DNA of 64,000 bases from Erwinia tasmaniensis Et1/99 (GTDB lineage Bacteria; Pseudomonadota; Gammaproteobacteria; Enterobacterales; Enterobacteriaceae), in NCBI RefSeq assembly GCF_000026185.1, contig NC_010694.1, positions 2,666,001-2,730,000 of the forward strand, read 5' to 3'. The notes beneath the pieces are model-generated. The model was not told the origin of the DNA. It saw only the letters and a list, made by a program, of their open reading frames with translations, and searched no databases. Shown piece after piece: positions 4,522 to 59,675 of the stretch (the first letter of the stretch is position 1; each line of letters begins with the position of its first letter). The position numbers and the translations under genes were made by a program.

Positions 4522-4667
4522 AGTATTTATCCTCTTCGGATTTTATTGTTTTCGCGCCTGGGGCGCATTGATTGAGGGCCCGTTTCCCGGTGTGGTGGCC
4601 TGATTCAGGCCGCAAAAATCCGCGCCACGAGCCAAAGCCCGTCACGTCACATCACGTCATCGTCTTT

Positions 4668-5444: not shown

Positions 5445-5446
5445 AT

Positions 5447-7329: not shown

Positions 7330-8237
7330 TATTCACGCTCCTGTTTACATGGCAGGGCGATCCCACTGAAAATTTTGATGACCGCACTGTCATCTTCACG
7401 TCCGTAGCCGGCATTGCTGGCCGCGGTAAACATGTTTAAAGCCGTTGATGCCAGCGGCAGAGGAAAACGCAGATCCTTAGCCGTGTCGGCCACAAGCCCA
7501 AGATCCTTCACAAAAATATCCACCGCAGAGGTGGGCGAATAGTCGCCATCGACGACATGACGCATACGATTTTCAAACATCCAGGAATTGCCGGCCGCAT
7601 TCGTCACCACTTCATACAGGGTCTCAAGCGGAATACCGGCACGGGCAGCGAGCGCCATCGCTTCCGCGCCGGCCGCGATATGGACACCGGCCAGCAGCTG
7701 GTGAATAATCTTCACCGTCGAGCCCTGTCCGATTTCATCGCCGATACGGTAGACCTTAGCCGCCACCGCATTCAGCACCGGCTGTAACAGTGCAAAGGCC
7801 CGATCGCTGCCTGATGCCATCACCGTCATTTCGCCCCTTGCCGCTTTCGCGGCCCCACCGGATACCGGGGCATCCAACATAATCAACCGATAGGCACTGA
7901 GCTGTTTTTCAATATTTTTTGCGTCAAGGGAAGAGAGAGTCGAAGAAACCATCACCGCCGTTCCTGGGGTTAATCGCGCTGCCAGACCGTTTTCTGCAAA
8001 CAGGATCTGTTTAACCTGGTCTGCATTCACGACCAGCAGCAGCACCGCATCAAGTTCGGCGGCAAATTCATCGGCGCACGTATCCGCAGCCTGCGCCCCA
8101 CTGTCGCGTAGCGTCTGCAAAGCCTGCTGGTTAAGATCCACGCCCCAGGTTTTCAGGCCAGCGTGAATACAGGATTGCGCCGCCCCCATTCCCATTGATC
8201 CAAGCCCAATCACACAGACTGACATTGATGTTGACAT
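7329..8237 (-). CDS. ltnD: L-threonate dehydrogenase (beta-hydroxyacid dehydrogenase family)
   Basis: 302 residues. It has the Rossmann motif GLGSMGMGAA near the N-terminus, the substrate motif DAPVSGGAAKAARG and the catalytic Lys in STVKIIHQLL. LtnD oxidises L-threonate to 2-oxo-tetronate with NAD+. It is the first gene of the five-gene operon and is divergent from the DeoR-type regulator. Another in-frame ATG lies four codons in; the first is used because AGGG lies just upstream. Confidence 0.9.
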   Translation of the reverse strand: MSTSMSVCVIGLGSMGMGAAQSCIHAGLKTWGVDLNQQALQTLRDSGAQAADTCADEFAAELDAVLLLVVNADQVKQILFAENGLAARLTPGTAVMVSSTLSSLDAKNIEKQLSAYRLIMLDAPVSGGAAKAARGEMTVMASGSDRAFALLQPVLNAVAAKVYRIGDEIGQGSTVKIIHQLLAGVHIAAGAEAMALAARAGIPLETLYEVVTNAAGNSWMFENRMRHVVDGDYSPTSAVDIFVKDLGLVADTAKDLRFPLPLASTALNMFTAASNAGYGREDDSAVIKIFSGIALPCKQERE

Positions 8238-8318
8238 AGACCCTCGCGTTAAATTTAGTGAATATTTGTTTTGTATTGTTAACTATAGCCGCATAATAAG
8301 CCGATATTGGTGACGCTA

Positions 8319-8483
8319 ATCACAATAATGGATGAGTAACAGAATTTTTCACAATTAATAACAAGGCCAAACGTTGCACAATGACATTGTCTTCTGGTGA
8401 GATCCCACGCGAGTGAACCTGTACCGCTGTAGCAGCTAATCGTTTTCTGCACGGAGGCGCGACAATTAGCTAAAAATTGTGAT
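8319..8483. promoter_or_regulatory. Candidate operator cluster between ltnD and ygbI
   Basis: The 310-nt divergent gap contains a recurring TCACAAT word: at 8320-8326 and 8349-8355 on the plus strand and 8476-8482 on the minus strand. There is also a perfect short inverted repeat ACAAT-gac-ATTGT (8378-8390). DeoR-family repressors often bind several repeated sites over such gaps. Assignment as YgbI operators is inference. Confidence 0.45.
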
Positions 8484-8547
8484 GCGCCACGCAGGATGGC
8501 TCTTTACACTTTGACTCTGTTTCCCTGCCGAATTTTCAGGAGTTGTC

Positions 8548-9309
8548 ATGATCCCGATTGAACGTCATCAACAAATCGTCGCGCTGGTGCAGCTTCGTGG
8601 CGTGGTAAGTATTGCCGAATTGTCCGATCGGCTGGCCGTATCTCATATGACGATCCGTCGCGATCTGCAAAAACTGGAAGAACAGGGGATCGTGCAGCTG
8701 GTCTCCGGCGGAGTACGCTCTACCGAACGGCTCTCAAGCGAGCCTTCGCATCAGGACAAAACCAGCATGTGTGGCCTGGAAAAACAGGCAATTGGCCGCG
8801 CCGCCGCGCTCAATATTCCGCTCAATAGCTGTATTTATCTTGATGCCGGGACCACCACTCTGGCGCTGGCACGTGAGCTGGGAATGCGTGACGACCTGCT
8901 GATCGTCACCAATGACTTTGTCATTGCCCATTTCCTGCTTGATCATAGTCAGTGCCAAATGATCCATACCGGGGGCAAAGTATGTCGGGACAATCGTTCC
9001 TGCATCGGGGAGGCAGCGGCGCAAACATTACGTGGGCTGTCGCTGGATATTGCGTTTATCTCCGCCTCCTGCTGGAGCCCACGAGGTATATTTACGCCCG
9101 ATGAAGATAAGGTAGCCATCAAGCGCACGGCGAGTGATATCAGCAGCAAACGCGTGCTGCTGGCCGACAGTTCAAAATATAATAAAATAGCCACGTTCCT
9201 CGCCCTGCCGTTGGCGAATTTCGATCACGTCATCACCGATTTCCATCTGCCTGACAGCGCGCAACAGGAGCTGAAAAAACATAAATTTGAGGTCACGCTT
9301 GCCGGATAA
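8548..9309 (+). CDS. ygbI: DeoR-family transcriptional regulator of the threonate operon (YgbI type)
   Basis: 253 residues. The N-terminal winged helix runs VSIAELSDRLAVSHMTIRRD, and the C-terminal sugar-phosphate-sensor domain includes IYLDAGTTTLALA and LLADSSKYNK. DeoR proteins of this type usually repress an adjacent operon and are released by a phosphorylated sugar intermediate. Divergence from ltnD and the repeated motif in the gap support local control. An AGGAG site lies 6 nt before ATG. Confidence 0.9.
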   Translation: MIPIERHQQIVALVQLRGVVSIAELSDRLAVSHMTIRRDLQKLEEQGIVQLVSGGVRSTERLSSEPSHQDKTSMCGLEKQAIGRAAALNIPLNSCIYLDAGTTTLALARELGMRDDLLIVTNDFVIAHFLLDHSQCQMIHTGGKVCRDNRSCIGEAAAQTLRGLSLDIAFISASCWSPRGIFTPDEDKVAIKRTASDISSKRVLLADSSKYNKIATFLALPLANFDHVITDFHLPDSAQQELKKHKFEVTLAG

Positions 9310-9481
9310 TTTATCCAGGCCGCGCAATAAAAAATATTTATGCGACAGCGGTCAAAATCCTCTCTTTTTTTACCGCGCATAATGAAAGAAATGTGAGCTA
9401 AGGAGCTTAATTTAACAGGGGGATGGTGGACCCCATTTGCAGTGTGTTGCGACTTTGACGGAAACGTCATCAGGACATTCT

Positions 9482-9727
9482 ATGAACACGATCAATACCA
9501 GTATGGGGCGTTACTGTATCAAAGCGGATAATGTCGGCGACCATATTCAGGGATCGATAGCCATCAATGACGAAGGAGGTACTCAGCTGACGCGCCAGGA
9601 GTTCAGTGAGTACGACCTGGACGACGTTATCAATAACGTCATCTTTCCGGTGACCGGCGGTAATAGCCTCATTGCCAACGCGATACGGGAAAAAATGATC
9701 GATGCGGGATTCACACAACCGCATTGA
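9482..9727 (+). CDS. Conserved-looking hypothetical protein, 81 residues
   Basis: The frame is open from 9437, but AGGA 6 nt before the ATG at 9482 fixes the start there. The product is acidic and soluble with no signal or membrane span. Residues near the middle (EFSEYDLDDVINNVIFP) are rich in Asp/Glu. I do not recognise it. It stands alone between ygbI and an opposing gene. Confidence 0.5.
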   Translation: MNTINTSMGRYCIKADNVGDHIQGSIAINDEGGTQLTRQEFSEYDLDDVINNVIFPVTGGNSLIANAIREKMIDAGFTQPH

Positions 9728-9876
9728 TAATGGTTAGCAATAACGGGTGCCGGGCGCTATTTTCCTCCTGGACGGGCGGTTCACTCTCCCCGGCACCGAT
9801 GTAACCGCCAGTCGACGGCAATGAACAAAAACGTCGAGCGCAAAACCTTCCCAGGCTGACAATTCACAGCCGTTGC

Positions 9877-10968
9877 TTAGGCAATGTCTTTTGGCGGCGT
9901 CGTCGATCCCGTTGAGGCATCCTGCTCTGGCTCTACATCCCGGCTAGCTGAAGGGGTTGCTATGCGGAATATCGGGGCGACCAGCAGCAGCAGCAGACTG
10001 CCTGATACCGCACACACCAGCAGACTTAACAACCCTGCCCAGCCCTCTCCCGCCATCAATCCGCCAGCCACCAGCGAAAGCAGAAAAAAGAACATCAACG
10101 TGATTTTCACCACGCCGAGATTGATAATATTCATATCAGCTATTGCCATTCTGGCCGGCTTCGCTGCCAGCCTGGCCGCCTGCTGTTCGGCAGAAATCTT
10201 CTGCCGCAGCGCATCTAAATCAATGCAGGGCATCATGAAATCCTTCACAGGCTGCGGGTTATGCAGCTCGGCAAAAATGAGGTCAGTGGCAGGGAATATC
10301 AGCGGCCAGCTGGTGCTGTGAACGCCATAGCGGGCGAGTGCAGGCAGAGTGATACGCGGCCATTGAACCACCTGCAGATAACGATCGTTCAGCACCACCC
10401 AACTTTGTCGCGTGGCGCCTTTCGATACGTGATAAAGCTTAAAACGATCGGCCGGGGGATAAGGCAGCTCTGTGACTCTGGCGGTGATAAAGGGGATATC
10501 ACGCTGTCGGCAGTAATTTACCCGCCCCTGCCCCTGCGCCGCCAGCAGCAGCCCAAGCGCTGAAATAAAATAATAACAGGTGCCCTCGGCCGCGCTGCCA
10601 GAGGAGAGATAATCCCGCAACTTCTCTTCGCTACTGGCAGAGAGATGCTCCGGCCACCAGCGCCAGCTGCGGCCAATAACCCGTTCAGTGGGCACCTGCC
10701 AGACGCCCACAGGGGCAGCTTCTGCGGGCAGAGAAACAAAAGGGAAAATTTTGCTAAAGAAGGTGAGCGCATCGTCCGGGCCATTCCACTCACCGCTGGC
10801 CTCAAGGCCGTGCAGATTGCCGGTCAGCTCTCCCCAGCCCTTTTTCCCCAGCAGGTCGATCTGAAATTTCGTGTCTGCCAGCCGCCTGCCAAGCAGCAGC
10901 ATATCATCCGGAATGGCGGTTAAATCCAGTAATGGAGCCGGCGTACTTGTGTTTTCTTCACTTTCCAT
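9877..10968 (-). CDS. Hypothetical membrane-anchored protein, 363 residues
   Basis: An unrecognised protein with a long soluble N-terminal region of about 285 residues, rich in Trp and Leu, then two adjacent hydrophobic spans (about 290-330, starting INLGVVKITLMFFFLLSL) and a polar acidic C-terminal tail of about 30 residues. No signal peptide. Predicted topology has both ends on the same side of the inner membrane. The frame is long with even codon use, so the gene is believable; function unknown. Confidence 0.65.
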   Translation of the reverse strand: MESEENTSTPAPLLDLTAIPDDMLLLGRRLADTKFQIDLLGKKGWGELTGNLHGLEASGEWNGPDDALTFFSKIFPFVSLPAEAAPVGVWQVPTERVIGRSWRWWPEHLSASSEEKLRDYLSSGSAAEGTCYYFISALGLLLAAQGQGRVNYCRQRDIPFITARVTELPYPPADRFKLYHVSKGATRQSWVVLNDRYLQVVQWPRITLPALARYGVHSTSWPLIFPATDLIFAELHNPQPVKDFMMPCIDLDALRQKISAEQQAARLAAKPARMAIADMNIINLGVVKITLMFFFLLSLVAGGLMAGEGWAGLLSLLVCAVSGSLLLLLVAPIFRIATPSASRDVEPEQDASTGSTTPPKDIA

Positions 10969-11967
10969 ACTGCTTTTTTATCCTGGCAGCGCGTCTTTTA
11001 ACCAGGTTAAAATTTGACTTTAGTCAAAAAACGCAATAATTTCAATAAGATAATATACATATTATTGACCAGAATTAGCAATATCCCTGCAATAAAAGGC
11101 CCATTGATTATTTACTGCGCATCATATGCAGCACATGTGTATTAAGTGGACGTCTTCAGCACGCCATACAGCTCGGCAGCAGCGGAGCAGCTTCAATCTG
11201 GCCGTGGTACGTAACGGCTAAACACACGCAACGCCGGCATGGCGAACCACTGGTGACCTGGCGGGAAGTCGCCGCGCCACAGGATAATGCCAGATGATAA
11301 TTTTTGATTTCCAACAGGAAAAGCTTGAATAGCTTCGATTAATTTGTAACAAAGTGATTCTAATTACACATTTTGATTTATTACAACCTTAACATTTTAA
11401 GGCTCATTCCTGGTAAAACCGGCGTATTAATGAATTTTGATCAGAAGGGAGAGGTAAAAATGAAAATGCTATTTCTTATCGCCGTAAATTAACAACTACG
11501 CTACACGATTGCCATAAAAAAGTATAAATCACCGGGCAAATATATCATTCTGGCGCTAGCATTCGGTTTTAATAACTTACAGACTCAAAAGAGAATAAGC
11601 TTCACGGAAAAGACTTAGAAATCATCAGCGCTGCATAGGATGAAAAGAGTTTAATTGATGATGCAATTTCCAGTTTAAACACGCTGACCACACAAATTCA
11701 TTACATTTAGCCATCAAAAAAGAAAATTGCGTTAACACGACCGAGCGCAGATTTAACCTGTAAGCGAAACAATTATCTGTATTAATCACTACTGTTATAC
11801 CTAAAATCAATATTATTGTAGCTACTTCTCCACCGTCTTTAGTTTTAGGATCGGAACTTCGATGAGAAGCCCCCGGTTAATAACCCTGCTTGTGCTGAAT
11901 ATGTCATATATTTGTTAATCGTGGGTAAAAAAAATAAAAGGCTGTTTATGTTAGAACGAGGTAAGCA
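10969..11967. other. 1-kb AT-rich gap, partly decayed sequence
   Basis: No convincing gene. It contains an inverted repeat TCAATAA (11042-11048) / TTATTGA (11062-11068). A short ORF with a ribosome site at 11460 ends after 10 codons and is followed in another frame by coding-like sequence (ending at a stop near 11617), which suggests a dead small gene. The right end must hold the cioA promoter. Confidence 0.4.
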
Positions 11968-13392
11968 ATGTTCGGATTAGATGCGTTTCATCTCGCCAGG
12001 ATACAGTTCGGTTTCACTGTGGCCTTCCACATTCTCTTCCCGGCCATCACCATCGGCCTTGCCAGCTTTCTGGCCGTGCTGGAAGGTCTTTGGCTGAAAT
12101 CGAAAAATGAGGTTTATCGCGACCTCTATCATTTCTGGTCGAAAATCTTTGCCGTCAACTTCGGCATGGGGGTGGTTTCAGGGCTGGTGATGGCCTATCA
12201 GTTCGGCACCAACTGGGCCGGTTTCTCACAGTTTGCCGGGAGCATTACCGGGCCGCTGCTGACCTACGAAGTGCTTACCGCGTTCTTCCTTGAAGCCGGC
12301 TTCCTCGGCGTTATGCTGTTCGGCTGGAACCGTGTCAGCCGTGGCCTGCACTTCTTTGCTACCTGCATGGTGGCACTCGGCACCATTATCTCTACCTTCT
12401 GGATACTTGCATCGAACAGCTGGATGCAAACTCCCCAGGGTTATGCCCTGCAAAACGGCATCGTGGTACCGACTGATTGGCTGGCCATTGTCTTCAACCC
12501 TTCCTTCCCGTATCGCCTGTTCCATATGTCGATTGCGGCATTCCTGGTCACCGCTTTCTTTGTCGGAGCCTCTGCCGCATGGCATCTGCTGCGCAAAAAC
12601 GATACGCCGGCAGTGCGTAAGATGCTGTCAATGTCTTTATGGATGGCGCTGATCGTCGCCCCCATTCAGGCGATGGTGGGCGATGCTCACGGCCTGAACA
12701 CGCTTGAACATCAGCCGGCGAAAATCGCGGCAATCGAAGGCCACTGGGAGAACCCACCGGGTGAACCCACTCCGCTGATCCTGTTTGGCGTGCCGGATAT
12801 GAAGGAAGAGCGCACCAAGTACGCGCTGGAGATCCCGTATCTGGGCAGTCTGATCCTGACCCACAGCCTGGATAAGCAGGTTCCGGCATTGAAAAGCTTC
12901 CCGCCAGAAGATCGTCCCAACTCTACCGTGGTGTTCTGGTCGTTTCGCATCATGGTCGGCCTGGGAATGTTGATGATCCTGGTCGGGGTACTTAGCCTGT
13001 GGATGCGCCGTGGTCAACGCATTTATACATCGCGTCCTTTCCTTTGGTTCGTGCTGCTGATGGGGCCATCGGGTCTGATTGCACTGGTAGCAGGCTGGAT
13101 AACGACCGAGATAGGCCGTCAGCCGTGGGTCATTTATGGCCTGCTGCGCACCCGGGATGCCGTATCCCTGCACAGCGATCTGCAAATGGCCATCAGCCTG
13201 ATCGTATTCCTGGTGGTCTACTTCTGCGTATTCGGTGTCGGCTACACCTACCTGGCTAACCTGATCAAAAAAGGGCCGCAGGCAGGCGAAGGTGAGCACA
13301 CGCCAGAAGGTGGTCCAGGTACTTCCCATACCCCTTCACGCCCGCTATCTGCGGTGCAGGAAAAATTAAATTCGCCGCAGGAGGATAAGTAA
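11968..13392 (+). CDS. cioA: Cytochrome bd-type quinol oxidase subunit I, CioA/short-Q-loop type
   Basis: 474 residues with about nine spans. It has a His near residue 21 (VAFHILFPA) and one in RLFHMSIAAF, as expected for haem b ligands, and the GRQPW motif of the quinol-binding side. It is shorter than E. coli CydA (522), the difference lying mainly in the periplasmic Q-loop, which fits the cyanide-insensitive CioA branch. It transfers electrons from ubiquinol to O2 without proton pumping. GAGG lies 7 nt before the ATG. Confidence 0.88.
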   Translation: MFGLDAFHLARIQFGFTVAFHILFPAITIGLASFLAVLEGLWLKSKNEVYRDLYHFWSKIFAVNFGMGVVSGLVMAYQFGTNWAGFSQFAGSITGPLLTYEVLTAFFLEAGFLGVMLFGWNRVSRGLHFFATCMVALGTIISTFWILASNSWMQTPQGYALQNGIVVPTDWLAIVFNPSFPYRLFHMSIAAFLVTAFFVGASAAWHLLRKNDTPAVRKMLSMSLWMALIVAPIQAMVGDAHGLNTLEHQPAKIAAIEGHWENPPGEPTPLILFGVPDMKEERTKYALEIPYLGSLILTHSLDKQVPALKSFPPEDRPNSTVVFWSFRIMVGLGMLMILVGVLSLWMRRGQRIYTSRPFLWFVLLMGPSGLIALVAGWITTEIGRQPWVIYGLLRTRDAVSLHSDLQMAISLIVFLVVYFCVFGVGYTYLANLIKKGPQAGEGEHTPEGGPGTSHTPSRPLSAVQEKLNSPQEDK

Positions 13393-46025: not shown

Positions 46026-48905
<2,880 letters not shown>

Positions 48906-50347: not shown

Positions 50348-51346
50348 ATGAATACTCGAAATCTATCTCAAACCCTCTCTGTCAGTTCTGTTGGTTATGG
50401 TGCCATGGGACTGAGTGAGTTTTATGGCCAGACTGACGATCAGACCGCCCTGAAGCTATTACATAAACTCGTTGACCTCGATATCACCTTCATCGACACC
50501 GCAAACCTGTATGGCCGTGGCCACAATGAACGTCTGATCGGCCATTTTCTTGCCGGTCTTGACAAGACGACTCGTGAGCAGTTCAAAATCGCCACCAAGT
50601 GCGGCATCGATCGATCGCCTGATGAATCCTACGCCCGCACCATCAACAACCGGCCTGACTATATTACCCGCTGCTGTAATGAATCTCTCAAAAGACTGGG
50701 CGTTGAGCGTATTGATCTTTTTTATCTGCACCGGGTCAGTCAGGCAACGCCCATCGAAGAGAGCATGGAATGCCTGAGCCGTCTTGTTAAAGAAGGCAAG
50801 ATTAACCACATCGGTCTTTGTGAAGTCTCTGCGGCTACTCTGCACCGGGCGCATGCCGTACACCCGCTCACAGCACTACAGACCGAATATTCACTGTGGA
50901 CGCGCGATATTGAACAGGAAATCCTGCCGGCAGTGAAAGAGTTGGGTATTGCTCTGGTTCCCTACTCCCCTCTGGGAAGAGGCTTCCTGACCGGTAAATA
51001 TCGTAGTAATAATGATTTTGCAGAAGGTGACTTCCGCAAAAACAATGAGCGGTTCATCCAGTCGAGCCTGGATCACAATGCTAAGCTGCTTGACGTTATC
51101 GCCCCGCTCGCGGAAAAATACGGCTGCACTACGGGTCAGATTGCGCTGGCCTGGTTGCTTGCACAGTATGAAAAGCTTGTGCCTATCCCAGGAACCAAAC
51201 ACATCAGTTACCTGACCGAAAATGCACAGGCGGCCAACATTGTTCTGGAAGAAACCGATATCATCCTGCTGAACAACATTCATCTGCACGTTGAGATAAA
51301 AGGTGGCCGCTACTCTGAGGAAGGCATGAAAGGCGTTAACGCCTGA
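50348..51346 (+). CDS. Aldo/keto reductase beside the AfsA operon
   Basis: 332 residues with tetrad Asp50, Tyr55, Lys84, His128. AAGGAG 6 nt before ATG. Paralogue of the AKR at 46949. It is convergent with the eight-gene AfsA-type operon, separated by a shared terminator, so any role in that pathway is a proximity argument only. Confidence 0.88.
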   Translation: MNTRNLSQTLSVSSVGYGAMGLSEFYGQTDDQTALKLLHKLVDLDITFIDTANLYGRGHNERLIGHFLAGLDKTTREQFKIATKCGIDRSPDESYARTINNRPDYITRCCNESLKRLGVERIDLFYLHRVSQATPIEESMECLSRLVKEGKINHIGLCEVSAATLHRAHAVHPLTALQTEYSLWTRDIEQEILPAVKELGIALVPYSPLGRGFLTGKYRSNNDFAEGDFRKNNERFIQSSLDHNAKLLDVIAPLAEKYGCTTGQIALAWLLAQYEKLVPIPGTKHISYLTENAQAANIVLEETDIILLNNIHLHVEIKGGRYSEEGMKGVNA

Positions 51347-51363
51347 GTACTGAACTCATAAAA

Positions 51364-51389
51364 AAAACCGGGCAATGTCCGGTTTTTTT
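51364..51389. terminator. Bidirectional rho-independent terminator
   Basis: AAAACCGG / CCGGTTTT arms, 7-nt loop, A run before and T run after, between the convergent AKR and thiolase genes. Confidence 0.88.
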
Positions 51390-51413: not shown

Positions 51414-52598
51414 TTAGCTTTTCTGTCGGTAGACGCTCAACGCGACGCCTTCGCCACCGCCAATACAGAGTGCAGCCATGCCGCGCTGACCGTTGGTCCG
51501 TATCAGACCGTGTACAAGAGTGACCAGTATACGGCATCCCGACGATCCAATAGCATGACCAAGCGCGATAGCACCACCGTAAGGGTTGATGCGCTCTGGT
51601 GAAATGCCTGTCTGAGCGATAACTGCGAGAGCCTGAGCCGCAAACGCTTCATTTGATTCGAGATGTTCAATGTCTTCAGGCTTCCAGCCTGAACGAGTAA
51701 GGCAGTCTGTGATTGCCTGTATCGGACCGGCACCCATTAGTGCCGGCTTGATACCCGAGTTGGTGAACTCTCCCAAAGAAGCCAGAACCGGCAGTCCCTG
51801 TGCCTCTGCTGTACATCGGGTGCACAGAAGAACAGCGGCGGCACCGTCGTTAAGTGAGGAGGCATTACCCGCAGTGACTGTGCCCCCCTTTCTGAATACA
51901 GGTTTGAGTTTCTCGAGCTTTTCGATGCTGGTCTGACGCGGACCTTCATCAGTATCAACCCTCTGAGTTTCACCCTTTCTGTTCTGCCACTCTACAGGAA
52001 CAATTTCGCGCTCAAACACGTCCTGCTCCTGCGCCCTGATTGCCTTCATATGAGATAAAAGCGCGAATTCGTCCTGCATTTCACGAGTGATACCAAACTT
52101 ATCCGCCACGTTCTCAGCAGTAACCCCCATGTGGATATCATCAAAAGCATCCCAGAGCCCATCAGATACCAGGCTGTCTTTCATCTCGCTGTTTCCGAGA
52201 CGTGTCCCAGTACGCGACGATGTCAGGATATGCGGTGCACTGGACATGCTTTCCTGACCGCCAGCAATCACAAACGTTGCTTCTCCGGCGAGCAGTGCCT
52301 GCATACCCAGATGAATCGATTTCAGACCCGAACCGCAGACTTTGTTAATGGTCATACACTGTGTTTCGACAGGCAGTCCGGCTTTCAGTGCAGACTGGCG
52401 TGCGGGGTTTTGACCGCAGCCGGCGGTCAATACCTGTCCCATAATGACCTGTGAAATCTCACTTGCTTTGACGCCGGACTCTTCAAGAAGCGCACGAATA
52501 ACATGACTTCCCAGCGCAACGGCGGAGAGCCCGGACAGTCCCCCCATAAATGCACCGGTTGCCGTGCGTCTTGCAGAAACAACCACGACTTCATTCAT
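51414..52598 (-). CDS. Acetyl-CoA acetyltransferase (thiolase)
   Basis: 394 residues. Acylation Cys88 in NKVCGSGLKS, catalytic His in GGAIALGHAIGSSG and second Cys in CIGGGEG are present. It makes or cleaves acetoacetyl-CoA-type beta-ketoacyl-CoA. It is the last gene of the AfsA-type operon and overlaps the gene before by 4 nt. In this setting it could supply a beta-ketoacyl thioester to the AfsA-like enzyme (inference). Confidence 0.92.
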   Translation of the reverse strand: MNEVVVVSARRTATGAFMGGLSGLSAVALGSHVIRALLEESGVKASEISQVIMGQVLTAGCGQNPARQSALKAGLPVETQCMTINKVCGSGLKSIHLGMQALLAGEATFVIAGGQESMSSAPHILTSSRTGTRLGNSEMKDSLVSDGLWDAFDDIHMGVTAENVADKFGITREMQDEFALLSHMKAIRAQEQDVFEREIVPVEWQNRKGETQRVDTDEGPRQTSIEKLEKLKPVFRKGGTVTAGNASSLNDGAAAVLLCTRCTAEAQGLPVLASLGEFTNSGIKPALMGAGPIQAITDCLTRSGWKPEDIEHLESNEAFAAQALAVIAQTGISPERINPYGGAIALGHAIGSSGCRILVTLVHGLIRTNGQRGMAALCIGGGEGVALSVYRQKS

Positions 52599-53008
52599 GC
52601 GTTTTTTCCTTTCAGACCGGGTAGTGTATGCCCGGTTGCCGCCATTGCGGCACGATAGGCGGTCAGGCCATTCATACAGGCCGGAACGCCTGCATAAACC
52701 GCCATCTGAATCACGATTTCCAGTAACTCCTCAGGCGTGACGCCGGTATTAAGCGCAGCTCTCATATGCAGCTCCAACTGCGGCATAGCATTACCCAGCG
52801 TGACAAGCGATGCCACTGTCAGCATTTCACGGGTCTTGAGGTCAAGGCCAGGGCGTCCCACCACAGCACCAAACGCGTAGTCGGTGATCAGGGTCGGTAA
52901 TGAAGGATCAAGTTCAGCCAGGCGTCCTGTGACTTTATCGGCAAGACCGGGTTCAAGGCGGTCCATAATGTCTTTTCCATAACGGGTCAGATCGCTAGCT
53001 TCACTCAT
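52595..53008 (-). CDS. Carboxymuconolactone-decarboxylase-family protein (PcaC-like)
   Basis: 137 residues, all-helical CMD fold. Conserved segments LKTREMLTVASLV, LELHMRAALNTGVTPEELLEIV and YAGVPACMNGL are present. True PcaC decarboxylates gamma-carboxymuconolactone; many relatives act on other butenolide-like lactones or have no known substrate. It overlaps the MFS gene by 8 nt and the thiolase by 4. Confidence 0.85.
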   Translation of the reverse strand: MSEASDLTRYGKDIMDRLEPGLADKVTGRLAELDPSLPTLITDYAFGAVVGRPGLDLKTREMLTVASLVTLGNAMPQLELHMRAALNTGVTPEELLEIVIQMAVYAGVPACMNGLTAYRAAMAATGHTLPGLKGKNA

Positions 53009-54215
53009 AAGATTTCTCCAGGACGTTTTGTGCAGACGCCACGCGCGTCGGGATAGCCGCCACGAGCAGAACTGAGAGTCCGATGGCCACGCCGGCTACG
53101 ACGTAGAGCATCGGAACAGAGAATTCGGATACCATCCACGCACCGGCAGAGGCGCCGATACCGATAGCAGTGTTGAAAAATGAAACGTAAACCGCAGAAG
53201 CAGGGAAGGTTTTATCTCCAGCCAGGCGCAGGACCCACGTCTGGAAGCCCACAAAGATCCCGGAGACAGCCACACCCCAGATACCCATTGCGATGAAGAC
53301 AGCAATGCCTGAAAGCGCTGCCCCGGATGTTCCCAGGAATACCAGCACCGCGCAAATGAGCAACACTGAAATGGAAACTGTCGCTTTGAGATATTTATCA
53401 ATCACCACGCCGGTCAGGAAATTGCCGGCAAGTCCCGCAATACCGTACACAAACAGCACAGCAGGAATAACAGATGTGGCCAGTGAATGCTGCGTGTGCA
53501 GCCAGGGCTCAATGTACGTAAAGGCAGCAAAGTGCGCGGTGACAGCGAGCAGCGTAGCAGAATAGATTTTCCACAGCGCCGAAGATTTCAGTACGCCTTT
53601 AAGCGCCCCAAAGCCAATCGCGCTTTTTTTGGTGATCTCTGGTATCAGCACGCTGATACCGGCAAATGCCACCACGCTGAGTACCGCCATCAGCCAGAAT
53701 GCCTGTCGCCAGCCGAAGTGAATGCCAATATAGTTTGAAACCGGCACGCCAAACACACTGGCTGCCGATACGCCACCAAATACGATTGAGGTTGCGGCAC
53801 CAATATACCTTGCCGGCACAATGGAAACGGCCGTTGCTCCAATCATTGCCCAGAATGCACCGTGAGCCAGCGCTCCCAGCACGCGTGCAGCCAGCAGCAC
53901 CGTGTAAGTGCTCACCGTCGCGGCAAGTACGTTAGACAGGAAAAGGATCACGGTGAGCGTAAGCATCAGCCGCTTCTTGGCCACATTGCCCAAAAATACT
54001 GATGCAAAAAGTGCGCTCAGTGCACCTACCCATGCATACAGTGAGACCGTCATACCCACTGCTGATTCAGACGCATTCAGGCCTTTTGCGATTGGCGTCA
54101 GCAGGCCAACAGGTGCCAGCTCTGTAGTGACGATCGTAAACGTTGAAAGAGCCAGAATAAAAAGGGCAAGCCACGACCTTATGGTCATATCCTGCTGAGA
54201 GCTTTCTGCGTTCAT
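53001..54215 (-). CDS. MFS transporter, DHA1 (SotB/AraJ-like) exporter
   Basis: 404 residues, 12 spans. ATG at 54215 is supported by AGAGGT 6 nt upstream; the open frame continues to 54362 without a site. It has the TELAPVGLL motif in span 1, which is characteristic of the SotB/AraJ branch. It probably exports the operon's product. It follows the phosphatase by 20 nt. Confidence 0.87.
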   Translation of the reverse strand: MNAESSQQDMTIRSWLALFILALSTFTIVTTELAPVGLLTPIAKGLNASESAVGMTVSLYAWVGALSALFASVFLGNVAKKRLMLTLTVILFLSNVLAATVSTYTVLLAARVLGALAHGAFWAMIGATAVSIVPARYIGAATSIVFGGVSAASVFGVPVSNYIGIHFGWRQAFWLMAVLSVVAFAGISVLIPEITKKSAIGFGALKGVLKSSALWKIYSATLLAVTAHFAAFTYIEPWLHTQHSLATSVIPAVLFVYGIAGLAGNFLTGVVIDKYLKATVSISVLLICAVLVFLGTSGAALSGIAVFIAMGIWGVAVSGIFVGFQTWVLRLAGDKTFPASAVYVSFFNTAIGIGASAGAWMVSEFSVPMLYVVAGVAIGLSVLLVAAIPTRVASAQNVLEKSYE

Positions 54216-54235
54216 ATTTATACCTCTAAAATGAT

Positions 54236-54886
54236 TTAAATAACGGGCCAGTGCTGGTGAATCGCATGGCTGGCAAGCGCTGATTTCTTTCCTACGCAAA
54301 TCGGGTGGCCGACGGATTCCAGCATGGGAATATCGGAGAGATCGTCCCCATAGGCATAGCAATCTTCAGGACTGATTTCTTTTCCGCGACAGAACGCAAT
54401 AAGTGCCTCTCGCTTGCCACCACCAATGGTCTGCGGCGTGCCTATTTCACCCGTCAGTGTTCCTGACTCTGTGAGTTCCAGAGGGGCACAGAGAATCTCC
54501 GTGACACCCAGGTATCGGGCAACCGGCGCAAGTACAGGACGCATTGACCCTGAAACAAAGATAGTCAGTCTGTTTTCCGCCTGATGCTGCCTAAGGGCTG
54601 CGACGGCACTGTTGATAAATAGAGTTTTGACTGACTTTGAACGGAACCATTTTTCACCCGCCTCCTCCAGTTTTTTATAACTGACCCCAGAGAACTGTCG
54701 GTAATACTCTCTGTTCAAATACTCGCGACACTTCCCTTTTTTAACTTCTTCCTTAAACTGCGTCATATAACGTTCAAGCGCGCTCATTTCATTATTTTCA
54801 CGACACCAGAATCCGTAAAAATCAAACATACTTTTCATCGTTATAAGGGTTTCGTCGACATCAAAAAATGCGGCTGATTTCTGCAA
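54236..54886 (-). CDS. HAD-superfamily (subfamily IB) phosphatase
   Basis: 216 residues. Nucleophile motif FFDVDETL (Asp9, Asp11), motif II Ser in IFVSGSM, Lys in GGGKREAL and motif IV GDDLSDIPML are intact. SerB/CicA-like small-molecule phosphatase. A-factor-type synthesis requires dephosphorylation of the AfsA product, which this could perform (inference from operon context). Confidence 0.88.
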   Translation of the reverse strand: MQKSAAFFDVDETLITMKSMFDFYGFWCRENNEMSALERYMTQFKEEVKKGKCREYLNREYYRQFSGVSYKKLEEAGEKWFRSKSVKTLFINSAVAALRQHQAENRLTIFVSGSMRPVLAPVARYLGVTEILCAPLELTESGTLTGEIGTPQTIGGGKREALIAFCRGKEISPEDCYAYGDDLSDIPMLESVGHPICVGKKSALASHAIHQHWPVI

Positions 54887-54889
54887 AAT

Positions 54890-55114
54890 TCACTCCTCAT
54901 AACTCTTTCTTCGGCTTTTTACCGGAAAATCTTTGTCATCGCCGGGAATACCTGCATCAGACCAGCGTGAAGGCTGTATTTCAGAAATCACTACAGAAAT
55001 TTTATCCAGCGGTGCTCCGGTGTTTTTATGCACGGCATAAGTAATGTCTTCATGTAGCCTGAGCATGTCGCCTTCGTCTTTAGCAGGCCAGGTCGTGATA
55101 TGTACAAATGGCAT
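54890..55114 (-). CDS. 4-oxalocrotonate-tautomerase-family protein
   Basis: 74 residues. ATG at 55114 gives MPFVHITTW, placing the catalytic N-terminal Pro directly after Met as required for this superfamily; the frame opens four codons earlier. The Ser/Ile-rich VVISEIQPSRW end of the beta-alpha-beta unit is present. It expects keto-enol tautomerisation of an oxo-acid or ketone. 8 nt after the previous gene. Confidence 0.8.
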   Translation of the reverse strand: MPFVHITTWPAKDEGDMLRLHEDITYAVHKNTGAPLDKISVVISEIQPSRWSDAGIPGDDKDFPVKSRRKSYEE

Positions 55115-55122
55115 TTTTTTTC

Positions 55123-55956
55123 TCACTTTACGGTAATTAATTCATCGAATGAGCGGCTTTTCAATTTCAAATGAGCATGGATATCACCACCCAGCCCATA
55201 TAATCCAATTGCGCCCCCGTAGCTCTGGCGGGAACTCATATAAAGGACAACCACGTTAATTACCCGATTGCCATTGCGTTCATGTGCCGGGAACGGATCG
55301 GGTAATTCCGCCCAATAATTCGCATTGCCATCGTGGTCGGTGATAAATACGTTAGGTATACCCAGCGGACCCGGACGGCTTGGATTGTCCGTTGCCAGAT
55401 CCTGCTCACGCAGGCTCATTACGGTATAAACACTGTCGGGAACCAAGTTGCGAAATGTGAACCGGAACAGCGCACGTCGACTGTTTTCTGACAGACACAC
55501 TTCGAGACTGCCTTCAGCGCGCAACCATTTTTCCAGCGTGACAGGCGGGATCTGACGTTTACCGTCACTGCTGCGGTAATCTGCGATGTATCCTTCATGC
55601 AAAGGCAGGCTGGGCCGCCTTTCGGTATTAGCTTGTGGCCGCTGCTCTGGTGCGAACAGCATGCCGTAATTATTCAGCGGTACCGGCAGCGGGAGGGTAT
55701 GCAAGATCACGTCCTTCAGCTCTGCCTGTGACATGCAATCGATATCACGCAATATTTTGTAGGGTGCCGTGTCTCCAAAACCCGGAAGCGGGCTATCTGC
55801 CGCCACAATCACTCTGCGCCATGCCAGACCGTTGTCTCCTGGCACCATACCTACCACGACAAAGTTACCATCCTGATCCATTACCTCCGCAGGGGGGTAA
55901 AGCGGCCCCTGCGTGGTAGCAGTCAAACGGTATTTCTGACTGCTTAATTCAGGCAT
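55123..55956 (-). CDS. Unknown 277-residue protein of the AfsA-type operon
   Basis: Not recognised. No signal peptide or span. Predicted mostly beta: repeated strand-turn stretches with Pro/Gly (AEVMDQDGNFVVVGMVPGDNG; FRFTFRNLVPDSVYTVM; INVVVLYMSSRQSYGG) and a C-terminal GLGGDIHAHLKLK. It contains several His and Asp/Glu that could bind a metal. It overlaps the AfsA-like gene by 8 nt, so it is translationally coupled and likely a pathway enzyme or partner. Confidence 0.75.
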   Translation of the reverse strand: MPELSSQKYRLTATTQGPLYPPAEVMDQDGNFVVVGMVPGDNGLAWRRVIVAADSPLPGFGDTAPYKILRDIDCMSQAELKDVILHTLPLPVPLNNYGMLFAPEQRPQANTERRPSLPLHEGYIADYRSSDGKRQIPPVTLEKWLRAEGSLEVCLSENSRRALFRFTFRNLVPDSVYTVMSLREQDLATDNPSRPGPLGIPNVFITDHDGNANYWAELPDPFPAHERNGNRVINVVVLYMSSRQSYGGAIGLYGLGGDIHAHLKLKSRSFDELITVK

Positions 55957-56725
55957 GCGTTACCTTAAGGGTCGTGCCCTGATGCTCTACTATCATTGCC
56001 TGCATAGCCATCTCAGACAGCGATTTCTCCTTCTCAGAAATCAGCCCTGAAGGGTATACGGTGAAGGAGACGTCCATGCTGGCGCAAAGCGTCTTATGCT
56101 GCATTACGCGCACCTGCGCTTTGAAACGACCACGGCGTTCGTTAACGTCCTTCTCAAGGTACTCAAAATGAACCTGCGCTGGTAAAGGAAAAAGGAAGCT
56201 CGAAAAGTTTATCGCCATACTGTTAATGACGTAATAACGGCCCGTTTCCTGCTTGTAGGTAAACTCTTCAGTAATGGCGATAAACGCCTGACGGCTAGCT
56301 TCTACCAGGAGCATTCCCTGAATATGCTGACCGGTCTGATGATCGGCCATGAGTTCACAGCGCTCATCGATCAACAGCGGCATAGCAAAAAGATTACTGT
56401 TCTGCTCAATCTGTTCAGCAGGACCTATCAGAACATTGTGCTCCAGACGTTTATGGCAATATTCATTCTTTTTATCGTTAACAAGCTTTTCAAGAGAACA
56501 CATTTTTAGTTTATTGCCGTGAATAGTATTTCTCGGCTGATTTGAAATCACTTTCCCGGCAAAATCTTTACGCACGCCCTGCCCGATAATAATTTCATGC
56601 TCTTTATCGATGATGTTTGCAGGGATTTGCGTTAACAGCTCCAACTGAGTAATAGTCAGGACATCTTTTCCATTTGCGAATTCATTGAATTTATCGCCGA
56701 CAACAACCAGTTTCTTACAGTTCAT
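55949..56725 (-). CDS. AfsA-type (A-factor biosynthesis) hotdog-domain protein
   Basis: 258 residues from ATG at 56725 (AGGAG 7 nt upstream; the frame opens further to 56836). Tandem hotdog fold: the first domain carries GQHIQGMLLVEASRQA (132-147), the AfsA signature helix; the second spans about 165-225 (SMAINFSSFLFPLPAQVHFEY, CASMDVSFTVYP). In Streptomyces AfsA joins a beta-ketoacyl-ACP to dihydroxyacetone phosphate as the key step to gamma-butyrolactone signals. About 90 residues precede the first hotdog and have no recognised domain. Base composition is more AT-rich than the chromosome around it. Confidence 0.8.
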   Translation of the reverse strand: MNCKKLVVVGDKFNEFANGKDVLTITQLELLTQIPANIIDKEHEIIIGQGVRKDFAGKVISNQPRNTIHGNKLKMCSLEKLVNDKKNEYCHKRLEHNVLIGPAEQIEQNSNLFAMPLLIDERCELMADHQTGQHIQGMLLVEASRQAFIAITEEFTYKQETGRYYVINSMAINFSSFLFPLPAQVHFEYLEKDVNERRGRFKAQVRVMQHKTLCASMDVSFTVYPSGLISEKEKSLSEMAMQAMIVEHQGTTLKVTHA

Positions 56726-56735
56726 GGCGTACTCC

Positions 56736-57347
56736 TCAGCAACAACAAGCGCGATATATACGGGTATAGAGGCCTTCGTTACCTCCGGTAATATAGTTAT
56801 CACCTGCCTGCTGAATGATTTCCTGGTAGCGTGCATTGGTAAACGCTTCTTTATAGGTTTCTTTATCGCCGTTGAAAGCAGAAATGAACATCACACCTGG
56901 CACGCCACTGATGAGCGAGTGGAAGGCTTCAAAGCTTTCGATCTTGTCTTTATTGTCTCTTACAACGTTAAAGATCGTTTCATCGCGCCACTGGCGATAC
57001 TGCTGATAATTGTGTGCAGGAACTTCAACATGGCGCAGCTGAATATATTGTGTCTCAGGGAGATTTTTCTTACTGTCGATAGGTGACTCGACAAATTTCA
57101 GCAGCTCTCTGCGAATATCCGCTGAAATAACGTCAGCAAACTGATAGAACATAGATCCTATCTCTTCTTCCACCCATGATAATTCTTTAATGTCGTTAAA
57201 CGAACGAAGTTCCAGCAATTCATTTACACCCTGCTCTTCACAAAAATAATAGCGCGTGCTTTCAGTACTTTTTAATGACGAAAAAGCATCAACCGAAACA
57301 GTATTTTTTAATGGGAATCGAGATACCAGAACATAGTTAGATGACAT
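56736..57347 (-). CDS. Unknown 203-residue protein, possible dimeric alpha-beta barrel fold
   Basis: First gene of the AfsA-type operon, 10 nt before the AfsA-like gene. The C-terminal half (LRHVEVPAHNYQQYRQWRDE...TYKEAFTNARYQEIIQQAG) resembles ferredoxin-like dimeric alpha-beta barrels (NIPSNAP/ABM type), which act as small monooxygenases or cyclases. It ends with CCC. No signal. Fold assignment is tentative; function unknown. Confidence 0.7.
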   Translation of the reverse strand: MSSNYVLVSRFPLKNTVSVDAFSSLKSTESTRYYFCEEQGVNELLELRSFNDIKELSWVEEEIGSMFYQFADVISADIRRELLKFVESPIDSKKNLPETQYIQLRHVEVPAHNYQQYRQWRDETIFNVVRDNKDKIESFEAFHSLISGVPGVMFISAFNGDKETYKEAFTNARYQEIIQQAGDNYITGGNEGLYTRIYRACCC

Positions 57348-57481
57348 TATTATCTCCGGAAAAATGTTGGATTAGGTTTCGTATGTAAGTTATCAATCTG
57401 TGAATTAGATGGAATTGTTAAATATGTAATATAAATTTTGTATTACTGCAAACGAGCCTTTTTCTGAAATGAGCTTCCGTG

Positions 57482-57499: not shown

Positions 57500-57538
57500 A
57501 TAAGATAGAATAGTCTTTCGATTAACAGGGTGAAATTC

Positions 57539-58465
57539 ATGGCAATTGCAGAAAATTTGATCAGCAACAACCTCCCCAGCGTTAAGCAGCTTCAGTGCTT
57601 TCTCGCTGTCGCACATGAGCTGAACTTCCGCAGAGCCGCAGAACGGCTCAGGATGACTCAACCTCCCCTGACCCGTCAGATAAAGTGTCTGGAAGCTGTT
57701 TTGGAGATACAGCTGTTCAGCCGCAGCACGCACGAGGTCAGTCTGACAGAGGCTGGTCGCGAACTGGTTATCAGGGCAGAGAAGCTCCTTCAGGAGCTTA
57801 GCGAAATGAAAATGGTTGCACCTTCCTCCAAGAAAATTCTGCGTATTGGTCTCACCCGTACGCTGAATTTTGAGCTGATAGAATCTATTAATGAGCAGCT
57901 TAATAAACTGGATGTCAGCAATGATGTTGAAACACCCAACCTGACATCGGCGCAGCTGCTTCATTGCCTGTCAAAAAACACGCTTGATCTTGTGTTGACC
58001 GGCGAAAAAGGCACAGGTCATGAAAATATCGTTCAGTTCCGCTGGGTCTACCGCGAACCGCTGTTAATGGCGATGCCGGCTATGCATCCTGCTAGCCTGA
58101 AAGAAAAAGTCTCGCTGGAAGATATCCGTGATTTACCGCTCTTCTGGTTTGCAAGAAGCGCCAATCCCGCCTTCTACGATAAGTGTGAAAGCTATTTCGA
58201 TCGGCTCAGGTTTCCGCTTAAGCGGGTCAAAGAGCCAGACGACTCATTGGTTATGCTCACTCACATCGCCCGGGGCAAGGGGGTTGCCCTGATGCCGCAA
58301 TCAAAGTGCACATTCAATCAGGAAGGGCTATGCTACCGGGAACTGACCGATCACGAATCGTCAAAGCTGAATATCGATGTCTACGCGGCTACCCGACTTA
58401 ATGAAAAGCGAGAAAACATCCTGAATGCTCAGGACGCGTTATGTCGTAACAATTTGTCAGAGTAG
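57539..58465 (+). CDS. LysR-family regulator of the AfsA-type operon
   Basis: 308 residues. ATG at 57539 with AGGGTG 7 nt upstream is preferred to the GTG at 57530. HTH at about 15-60 (LPSVKQLQCFLAVAHELNFRRAAERLRMTQPPLTRQI), effector domain after that. Divergence from the eight-gene operon makes it the likely activator, possibly responding to a pathway intermediate or product. Confidence 0.9.
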   Translation: MAIAENLISNNLPSVKQLQCFLAVAHELNFRRAAERLRMTQPPLTRQIKCLEAVLEIQLFSRSTHEVSLTEAGRELVIRAEKLLQELSEMKMVAPSSKKILRIGLTRTLNFELIESINEQLNKLDVSNDVETPNLTSAQLLHCLSKNTLDLVLTGEKGTGHENIVQFRWVYREPLLMAMPAMHPASLKEKVSLEDIRDLPLFWFARSANPAFYDKCESYFDRLRFPLKRVKEPDDSLVMLTHIARGKGVALMPQSKCTFNQEGLCYRELTDHESSKLNIDVYAATRLNEKRENILNAQDALCRNNLSE

Positions 58466-58862: not shown

Positions 58863-59675
58863 ATGAAGAAAGCGCGTTTCACTGAGTCTCAGATCCTGCG
58901 GGTTCTTAAGAGGTTGAAAGGGGCAGGTATGTGAAAGACGTCTGCCATGAAACGCTGTTTCAGAAGTCAGCTATTACAACTGGAAAGCAAAATATGGCGG
59001 AGCGGTATCCGGCGTATGGTTTTGGCCTGATGTTCAGGAAGTTACCTCAGTCAGGGAGGGGGGGAATGCGAGCGGTTTTAACGGGTGTATCGCCTGCTAA
59101 AGCTAAACTTCCGCCGCAAGGGCAAAAACGTTTACCCAATCGACATCCACAGCCTCTTACTGTTCCGGTTAATACGAATCATTGCTGGTCAGTTGATTTT
59201 ATGAGCGATGCCCTGACGGACGGGCGGAGGTTCCGTCTATTCAACGTAGTGGAGGATTTCAATCGGGAGGCACTGGCAATTGATGTTGATTGAAACATAC
59301 CAGCTCATCGTGTCGTTCGGGTTCTGGAACGTCTGAGCGAAGAAAGAGCTTATCCGATTGTATTCGCAGCAATAACGGCCCGGAGTTCACAGCGGCGACG
59401 TTAACAAAATGGGCAGAACTTAACGGCATAATACTCGATTTTATTCAGTCGGACAGGCCAATGCAGAACGGCTTTATCGAACGGTTTAATAAAATGCTGC
59501 GAACAGAAATACTGGATATGTATTTTTCCGCTCTCTGTCAGAATTTCGCTTTTTAACTGAACAGTGGCGTAGTGAATATAACGAAGAACGCCCGCACAGT
59601 TCACTGGGTGGGATGTCTCAAGTTATTTACGCGAGGAAAAAGTTGGCCGGAGATCCTAACTGGAAGTGGTACTAA
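58863..59675 (+). pseudogene. IS3-family transposase remnant (orfA-orfB)
   Basis: Starts like IS3 OrfA ([16 protein letters not shown]) and is soon frameshifted (YVKDVC; in another frame [10 protein letters not shown]). Most of the OrfA end and OrfB start is deleted. Then follow OrfB integrase-core pieces: [32 protein letters not shown], stop, then NNGPEFTAATLTKWAE and GFIERFNKMLRTEILD, ending DPNWKWY. The DDE residues are recognisable but in three frames, so it is dead. Intact terminal inverted repeats were not identified. Confidence 0.8.

Follow-up and report, generated by a model that had tools for sequence, protein, structure and literature searches.

Ruegeria pomeroyi DSS-3 carries a gene cluster that is required for its broad killing of competitors by means of a diffusible factor (PMC7426152). 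Mutants in its afsA gene and in SPOA0341, the latter annotated as "hypothetical", do not kill, and mutants in SPOA0341 and SPOA0344 are sensitive to the parent strain; self-immunity is lowered in the SPOA0341 mutant (PMC7426152). Under the one condition used, loss of afsA alters 21 out of 4252 genes, 10 of them being the cluster genes themselves, whose expression needs afsA; other work, as cited there, puts five cluster proteins at 1-6% of the proteome (PMC7426152). The authors kept open a signal-only role for the GBL-like molecule and left the killing product unnamed in 2020 (PMC7426152). Our literature searches found no later paper naming the compound.

AfsA-family enzymes of Streptomyces are described as makers of signals, and in the AfsA/ScbA/BarX systems the AfsA step is followed by a phosphatase and a reductase. 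In the gladiostatin pathway of Burkholderia gladioli an AfsA-like domain has been demonstrated to condense a 3-ketothioester with dihydroxyacetone phosphate (DHAP), making it a phosphorylated butenolide synthase of the AfsA-like family in a Gram-negative pathway to a bioactive compound (PMC7756379). For methylenomycin the proposed route begins with an acetoacetyl thioester and a sugar-derived unit and passes through a butenolide, with an AvrD-like entry enzyme, MmyD, that takes a pentulose (PMC12593393). Finally, a Chromobacterium subtsugae locus combines AfsA, HAD, MarR and efflux genes (PMC12114271).

Results

Organisation of the unit

The window analysed is a stretch of 64,000 nt from Erwinia tasmaniensis Et1/99. 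Its open reading frames and sequence place eight genes at 51414-57347, all on the minus strand and spaced by 20 nt or less or overlapping, just as a preliminary description of this DNA had it. In transcription order the spacing is 10 nt (DABB-AfsA), an overlap of 8 nt (AfsA-C), 8 nt (C-tautomerase), 3 nt (tautomerase-HAD), 20 nt (HAD-MFS), an overlap of 8 nt (MFS-CMD) and an overlap of 4 nt (CMD-thiolase). With a divergent LysR-family gene and a convergent aldo/keto reductase gene the unit comprises ten genes (Table 1). The preliminary description missed both the conserved LysR gene and the reductase, the latter being an enzyme that it had expected, together with a phosphatase, for the later steps.

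Table 1. Features of the ten-gene unit, in window coordinates
Feature	Position	Strand	Basis
R: LysR-family regulator, divergent	57530..58465	+	PF00126/PF03466, above cut-off
Candidate operator block in the LysR-DABB gap	57414..57446	-	conserved stretch and palindrome
A: dimeric alpha/beta-barrel (DABB/ABM-like) protein, 203 aa	56736..57347	-	structure model
B: AfsA-related hotdog protein, 258 aa; predicted 3-ketoacyl thioester/C3-phosphate condensing enzyme	55949..56725	-	PF03756
C: 277-aa protein, family unassigned, SPOA0341 counterpart	55123..55956	-	gene order
D: Pro-1 tautomerase-superfamily protein, 74 aa	54890..55114	-	PF01361, 27.9 bits, cut-off 22
E: HAD-IB phosphatase	54236..54886	-	TIGR01490, 132.7 bits, cut-off 98.3
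F: MFS exporter, DHA1-like (predicted)	53001..54215	-	PF07690, above cut-off
G: CMD-family protein, PcaC-like	52595..53008	-	PF02627, 71.6 bits
H: thiolase, acetoacetyl-CoA type	51414..52598	-	PF00108/PF02803; TIGR01930, 430.3 bits, cut-off 240.55
Terminator-like hairpin and T run, between thiolase and convergent AKR	51361..51384	-	by eye in sequence
K: aldo/keto reductase, convergent, conserved with unit	50348..51346	+	PF00248

The hairpin listed in Table 1 is not among the hits of the terminator pattern scan, which found 6 patterns against a shuffle mean of 7.6, and sigma-70 promoter patterns were likewise not in excess (8 against a mean of 9.6). Between 44 and 64 kb of the window the GC content varies from 0.394 to 0.553, with no sharp island edge in that profile.

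The AfsA-related protein

Protein B matches the AfsA family at 47.5 bits (PF03756, Pfam cut-off 24), which bears out its assignment in the preliminary description. It is the sole match in its own genome, and the same search returned none in 14 control genomes. The classical gamma-butyrolactone synthase reading fared otherwise: against the ScbA/BarX profile NF041195 the protein reaches 20.9 bits at a cut-off of 200, so that its AfsA membership stands and its membership of that synthase group does not. Streptomyces AfsA/ScbA/BarX synthases have a two-domain AfsA architecture; within the 258 residues of B there is a single AfsA domain match, with G101 taken for comparison. None of the ten genes of the unit encodes a TetR-type receptor, another difference from those systems. 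Glu142, Arg145 and Gln146 are invariant in an alignment of 55 sequences, and the Glu-x-x-Arg motif of the second hotdog, which from work on ScbA we take to be catalytic, is kept in all 23 cluster copies of the protein; in six other AfsA proteins the Glu is present in every one and the Arg in five. A profile of the 55 sequences also aligns with the solved hotdog dehydratase 8ayi over 99 positions (E 9e-4).

Protein C

No Pfam family is matched by C, and its identification as the counterpart of SPOA0341 rests on gene order. A confident predicted model resembles the Cu,Zn-superoxide dismutase sandwich without the metal site. We reject a dismutase assignment, as the likeness is one of shape and the multi-histidine site is absent: among 97 relatives only His260 is near-invariant (96/97), with His120 in 80 and His262 in 52. 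The TTQGPLYPP stretch may resemble intradiol dioxygenases; no intradiol entries occur among the matches listed.

The remaining proteins

The thiolase, CMD, MFS, HAD and tautomerase proteins all exceed their Pfam cut-offs, and these profile matches support the earlier view of a phosphatase, an exporter and a thiolase as the likely source of 3-ketoacyl units. The thiolase H reaches 519.9 bits with an acetoacetyl-CoA thiolase profile and 338 bits with that of PcaF; its best profile, PRK05656 (acetyl-CoA C-acetyltransferase), falls under its cut-off, and three further thiolases, at 33-40% identity, occur in G000. The exporter F has PRK03545 as its best NCBIfam match, again under the cut-off, and the CMD protein G reaches 79.8 bits on TIGR02425 (PcaC) at a cut-off of 155.7. 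In D a proline directly follows the initiator methionine, and this Met-Pro start recurs in 21 of 22 copies, the window copy included. Protein A has no Pfam match, and its predicted model has a duplicated ferredoxin-like barrel fold, which supports the DABB-like call. When 78 relatives of A were compared with ABM and EthD profiles none matched at 0.01, stray families appearing in one or two members each; two relatives are labelled EthD domain-containing by one source. Protein A can be described as ABM-like, with a putative oxygenase role.

Distribution and kinship

Other genera have the eight genes in the same order, and the arrangement is therefore not due to chance. Our comparison rests on a table of 24 loci collected by C, so that the presence of C in all of them is by construction. 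Excluded from it were L044, judged by its length a duplicate of the L014 contig; L001-L011 and L027-L043, short stretches largely of genomes with longer loci; L053 and L055, with distant C relatives; L054, with AfsA, HAD, AKR and a distant C; and L056-L058, with AfsA or thiolase in the absence of C. AfsA and HAD are each found in 23 of the 24 loci, as is a relative of K, the remaining locus ending before the K position. F and G have matches in 18 loci each, several loci lacking them, and D has no match in either Streptomyces locus; parts of the scheme proposed below are therefore not universal. Where Enterobacterales and Vibrio have the thiolase, a Streptomyces version has KAS III and an ACP, both of which routes yield 3-ketoacyl thioesters. 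Relatives with a dedicated thiolase occur in Erwinia, Enterobacter, Buttiauxella and others, and the core of B, C, A, E and K extends across Gammaproteobacteria, Alphaproteobacteria and Streptomyces. The unit is rare and patchy and its surroundings differ among carriers, which suggests that it probably spreads horizontally. Escherichia coli has no match to the unit at the megablast level.

In one genome, G891, a single locus carries C, D, F, G and K, and neither AfsA nor DABB has a match anywhere. This fits an immunity set, and the locus is perhaps an orphan one, albeit in a single genome and with a look identical to that of a decayed cluster.

The preliminary description knew of no described pathway with this gene set in Enterobacterales. 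A qualification is due here: the same genes minus the thiolase make up the R. pomeroyi killing cluster (PMC7426152). On NC_006569.1 the proteins A-G and K all have relatives, at 34-58% identity, thus eight of the nine non-regulator genes, and the cluster there includes a LysR gene of its own. The DABB-like, AfsA-like, C, tautomerase and HAD genes stand in the same order (SPOA0339-0344 and neighbours), the CMD, AKR and MFS genes adjoin them and the LysR gene lies upstream; AfsA, C, DABB, HAD and AKR are thus all together in both. The R. pomeroyi cluster differs in that MFS, CMD and AKR form a separate group on the opposite strand, that its LysR gene shares a strand with A-E and has no match to R, and that it lies on a megaplasmid. 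The two AfsA proteins share only 34% identity, and the relative of A aligns over 130 of 203 residues.

A candidate operator

A relative of R is present in 17 of the 24 loci, with two further weak matches, and is directly divergent from A in 14. Across 13 of these 14 (L016 being excluded) conservation in the LysR-DABB gap is highest over the 30 nt at 57414-57443, with 16 of 30 columns invariant, a value that none of 10000 column shuffles reached; the shuffle tests the clustering of invariant columns, not relatedness. The best palindrome of the gap, an imperfect one of 21 bp with 9 of 10 pairs (57426-57446), overlaps this stretch, and on these sequence features we regard the whole block as a candidate LysR operator.

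Discussion

We propose that the ten-gene unit of this plant-associated bacterium very probably serves to produce and export a small diffusible compound and to protect the cell against it. We favour, as reasonably probable, the more specific reading that it is a horizontally acquired system of biosynthesis, export and self-protection, akin to the R. pomeroyi killing cluster, for an antibacterial derived from a butenolide. From gene content, kinship, co-conservation, the operator block and fold models, all computed here, we infer throughout the catalytic steps in this organism and any product activity. The thiolase H would supply acetoacetyl-CoA, which B would join to DHAP, or a similar C3 phosphate, to give a phosphorylated butenolide. 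The HAD protein E would take off the phosphate, and the ring would then be converted by the reductase K, the ABM-like A, the tautomerase D and protein C through reduction, cofactor-free oxidation and isomerisation. Export would fall to F, with G, K and C aiding self-protection, and the product or an intermediate may activate the operon via the LysR protein, such that output would rise with density. We know of no metabolite or phenotype in this connection for any Erwinia. Among the systems described above, gladiostatin employs its domain for PKS chain release in a large assembly line, unlike the stand-alone B with neighbours C, A and D (PMC7756379), and C. subtsugae shares the AfsA-HAD pair with efflux in a Gram-negative host (PMC12114271).

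More tentatively, the five-gene core may make a new class of self-inducing butenolide-derived antibacterials. C would then belong to a new family of metal-free proteins with an SOD fold and would both complete the compound and shield its producer, and some bacteria would keep only the protective half. The insertions in SPOA0341 may have polar effects on the tautomerase and phosphatase genes that lie downstream of it.

The preliminary description saw in the operon a candidate pathway to a signal, and an autoinducer of the gamma-butyrolactone or butenolide type, acting on other genes and on antimicrobial genes elsewhere among them, would agree with the Streptomyces enzymes, with the product-dependent expression of the R. 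pomeroyi cluster and with the second model of its authors (PMC7426152). We consider a pure signal unlikely. The R. pomeroyi genes are needed for killing and immunity (PMC7426152), the few genes that change in the afsA mutant leave little regulon, and five proteins at the proteome share given for that cluster are more than we would expect for a trace signal. Furthermore, B lies outside ScbA/BarX, and the genes for the exporter, the reductase and the CMD protein, like the AfsA-less subset, suit a toxic product better.

The butenolide could instead be re-cyclised to an electrophilic cyclopentanone-type antibiotic, as proposed for methylenomycin, whose acetoacetyl start, butenolide intermediate and antibiotic outcome resemble those proposed for the unit, and A, C and D are possible ring-editing proteins; the AvrD-like, pentulose-using MmyD in place of an AfsA-like enzyme makes this improbable (PMC12593393). 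An operon for the breakdown of a plant or aromatic compound, suggested by the LysR, thiolase, CMD, tautomerase, reductase and MFS genes and by PcaC-, PcaF- and 4-OT-like matches reminiscent of the beta-ketoadipate route, is very improbable given that these matches are all under NCBI cut-offs, that H prefers the acetoacetyl-CoA profile, that hardly any locus lacks AfsA or HAD, that no ring-cleavage family turns up among the matches of the ten proteins, that a Streptomyces version has KAS III and ACP, and that the R. pomeroyi cluster kills (PMC7426152).

For a butenolide-derived antibacterial, the unit offers a predicted starter (acetoacetyl-CoA and triose phosphate), the five-gene core, a candidate operator and a candidate immunity set, and relatives with a dedicated thiolase are further possible producers of an R. 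pomeroyi-type compound. This raises the question of whether antiSMASH 'butyrolactone' labels in Gram-negatives sometimes hide an antibacterial rather than a hormone.

As to AfsA loci of other kinds, when plasmids were searched with DNA from L059, whose AfsA is of the two-domain kind, the 5 of 31 records listed showed only short matches, and an ICE of Pantoea ananatis also carries an AfsA locus.

Anatomy and conservation of the unit

The eight open reading frames of the preliminary description are real and tightly packed on one strand. With the LysR gene that diverges from them (R) and the aldo/keto reductase (AKR) gene that converges on them (K), they make up a full unit of ten genes, the eight being lettered A to H in transcription order in the table. 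The assignment of the 258-residue protein B to the AfsA family was borne out by a profile search, in which B was the sole PF03756 protein of its genome and matches were seen in 0 of 14 control genomes. The operon genes also occur together elsewhere: nine named records (E. rhapontici, Buttiauxella, Cedecea, two Enterobacter, Lelliottia, Vibrio bivalvicida and two E. persicina) have all ten genes arranged alike. E. rhapontici H1 is the closest among the records compared (92-99% identity over the ten proteins), and Vibrio zhanjiangensis has nine genes on a contig that stops short of K.

Features of the unit and of related loci (positions within the sequence named)
Feature	Sequence	Position	Description
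A-H	window	57347-51414	operon, minus strand
A			minus strand; DABB-like protein, 203 aa; no Pfam family
B			minus strand; AfsA-related protein, 258 aa; PF03756 47.5 bits (cut-off 24)
C			minus strand; 277 aa; no Pfam family
D			minus strand; tautomerase, 74 aa, Met-Pro start
E			minus strand; HAD-IB phosphatase
F			minus strand; MFS
G			minus strand; CMD
H			minus strand; thiolase
R	window	57530-58465	LysR gene, divergent; conserved alongside A-H
K	window	50348-51346	aldo/keto reductase gene, convergent; conserved alongside A-H
Palindrome	window	57426-57446	best of R-A gap, 9/10 pairs
Broken pieces	window	58931-59556	IS3-type transposase-like, directly beyond R; resembling IS3-family orfB
Tandem pair	window	46038-47938	further aldo/keto reductase-like genes
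LysR-like gene	window	47973-48866
L026	Streptomyces sp. YIM 121038 plasmid	4542-10881	KAS III, ACP, TauD-type dioxygenase, AfsA, HAD, DABB-like, C, AKR
L048	G891:C100:73000-92000	8628-12497	tautomerase, C, CMD, MFS, AKR; MarR gene adjoining
L045		5181-7156	SDR reductase and MFS gene without match to F
L046		10032-10196	tautomerase copy
L053		9266-10471	distant C relative
L055		9031-9981	distant C relative
L058, L059	G101:C1:3692000-3711000 (L058)	near 9064-9960 (L058)	two-domain AfsA protein (57 and 81 bits), same-family genome

Among 24 loci, which include the window and were found through C, so that C is present in 24 of 24 by construction, relatives of A, B, E and K occur in 23 each, of D in 22 (none in either Streptomyces locus), of F and G in 18 each, and of H in 17, together with a 60-residue fragment at the edge of L022 (a Streptomyces locus), distant from the cluster. 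R has clear relatives in 17 loci and weak ones in 2. In 14 loci (the window, L012-L021 and L050-L052) R and A diverge directly, and in L045-L047 R lies on the same strand as A or further away. Within the genus, L051 and L052 carry all ten genes, and L050 (genome G006) gave no match to G, though MFS and thiolase genes are present, so that, judging from this locus, the CMD protein may be dispensable.

Kinship with a killing cluster

Two relatives of C were found in the plasmid collection, one in Streptomyces sp. YIM 121038 and one on the megaplasmid of Ruegeria pomeroyi DSS-3. In R. pomeroyi, MFS, CMD and AKR genes lie on one strand, and the opposite strand next carries LysR, A, B, C, D and E, with identities to the window of 42% for F, 51% for G, 52% for K, 34% for B, 54% for C, 45% for D and E, and 58% for A over 130 of 203 residues. 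Its LysR gene did not match R at 0.01, and the cluster is without a thiolase gene, whereas the window unit has H. This region is the killing cluster of PMC7426152, in the available text of which six non-killer transposon mutants map to the cluster, three in SPOA0342 (afsA), two in SPOA0341 and one in SPOA0344 (regulator). Sensitivity to the parent was seen in the SPOA0344 mutant and, to a varying extent, in the SPOA0341 mutants, whereas afsA mutants remain immune; ten cluster genes need afsA for their expression. By gene order SPOA0341 would be C, SPOA0343 would be A and SPOA0344 the LysR gene; reversed numbering would make SPOA0344 the tautomerase gene.

By analogy with this cluster, we think it rather probable that the Erwinia unit serves a diffusible antibacterial, its reactions, product and killing all being predicted. 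A pure gamma-butyrolactone/butenolide-like signal, the pathway first proposed for these genes, has the afsA-dependent expression in its favor and the non-killer mutants against it, and we consider it unlikely. According to the same text, gammaproteobacteria and actinobacteria are the main groups with homologs of SPOA0341-0343, so that kinship outside the roseobacters was already known; the compound is left unnamed there. Among the papers listed by searches by locus tag and by topic, no later one was seen to name the product, nor is one named in the available part of PMC10041152, which cites the R. pomeroyi work. A small antisense RNA, cis102, opposite SPOA0342 is tabulated in PMC4809877.

The earlier statement that no such pathway had been described in Enterobacterales agrees with the open-licence papers searched, largely by listing, among which none describing this eight- or ten-gene unit in that order was found, but the R. 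pomeroyi cluster resembles the unit without the thiolase. Butyrolactone clusters reported by antiSMASH in Gram-negatives, namely Photobacterium (PMC9456166), Vibrio europaeus (PMC12824646), a medfly Klebsiella (PMC9453069) and the strain in PMC6761702, as well as the AfsA locus of a Pantoea ananatis ICE (PMC4458695), may or may not be of the present type.

Predicted chemistry, control and self-protection

In the gladiostatin PKS, an AfsA-like domain joins 3-ketothioesters and dihydroxyacetone phosphate to give a phosphorylated butenolide (PMC7756379). In B, the Glu-x-x-Arg-Gln motif is kept in 23 of 23 cluster copies and Glu142, Arg145 and Gln146 are invariant among 55 relatives; its profile matches solved hotdog dehydratases weakly. 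The folds of A and C are predicted models. Acetoacetyl-CoA thiolase profiles outscore PcaF and FadA for H, which has no match in the Streptomyces sp. YIM 121038 version, where by annotation KAS III and ACP genes with a TauD-type dioxygenase precede AfsA. As thiolase and KAS III plus ACP both supply 3-ketoacyl thioesters, this agrees with the predicted substrate of B. E would then suit the dephosphorylation and K the reduction.

The R-A gap holds a block conserved in 13 aligned loci, from Erwinia to Vibrio, the best 30 nt of which have 16 invariant columns, a number reached by 0 of 10000 column shuffles, and overlap the palindrome. The block is a good candidate for a LysR operator, which would fit the product-dependent expression in R. 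pomeroyi.

At L048, genome G891 carries C, D, F, G and K with a MarR gene, and no match to AfsA or A was obtained in the whole genome, E and R having been sought within the 19-kb locus. This gene set in one genome and the immunity phenotype of SPOA0341 tentatively point to C, F, G and K as the protective half of the unit. L048 is possibly a stand-alone immunity cassette or a decayed cluster, which would look alike. A similar MarR gene lies in L049 inside a set without thiolase and R.

Distribution and minor observations

Within the genus, 7 of 37 genomes match the C profile, the identical seven matching B. In samples that each contain the window's own genome, matches occur in 3 of 392 of the family, 8 of 394 of the order (six strong, two weak) and 2 of 398 of the phylum (its own and one weak); megablast gave no match in 5,426 E. 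coli genomes. Flanking DNA of 12 relatives (about 1-7 kb) shares nothing by blastn with the window outside 50.3-58.5 kb except 61-211 nt matches, in five loci, to the second tandem reductase gene; these lie mostly at the relatives' K genes. Window B is 85-87% identical to Enterobacter, Lelliottia, Buttiauxella and Cedecea copies, 65-71% to Erwinia loci L020, L021, L050 and L052, and 92% and 85% to L012 and L051. Because B is closer to other genera than to four Erwinia loci, flanks are unshared and occurrence is patchy, this rare unit has probably spread horizontally.

Other AfsA genes of the sampled genomes (L054, L056-L058) lie in different settings; an AfsA match by itself does not mark the present system, AfsA together with C does. 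L053 and L055, with signal-like N-termini and no Pfam family, indicate that the family of C reaches outside AfsA clusters. The two L045 genes adjoin a thiolase-bearing cluster, the MFS gene perhaps substituting for F, and SDR and EamA transporter genes likewise occur in L024. The L046 tautomerase, the most diverged copy by identity, is without a Met-Pro start (its start being uncertain) and may be inactive.
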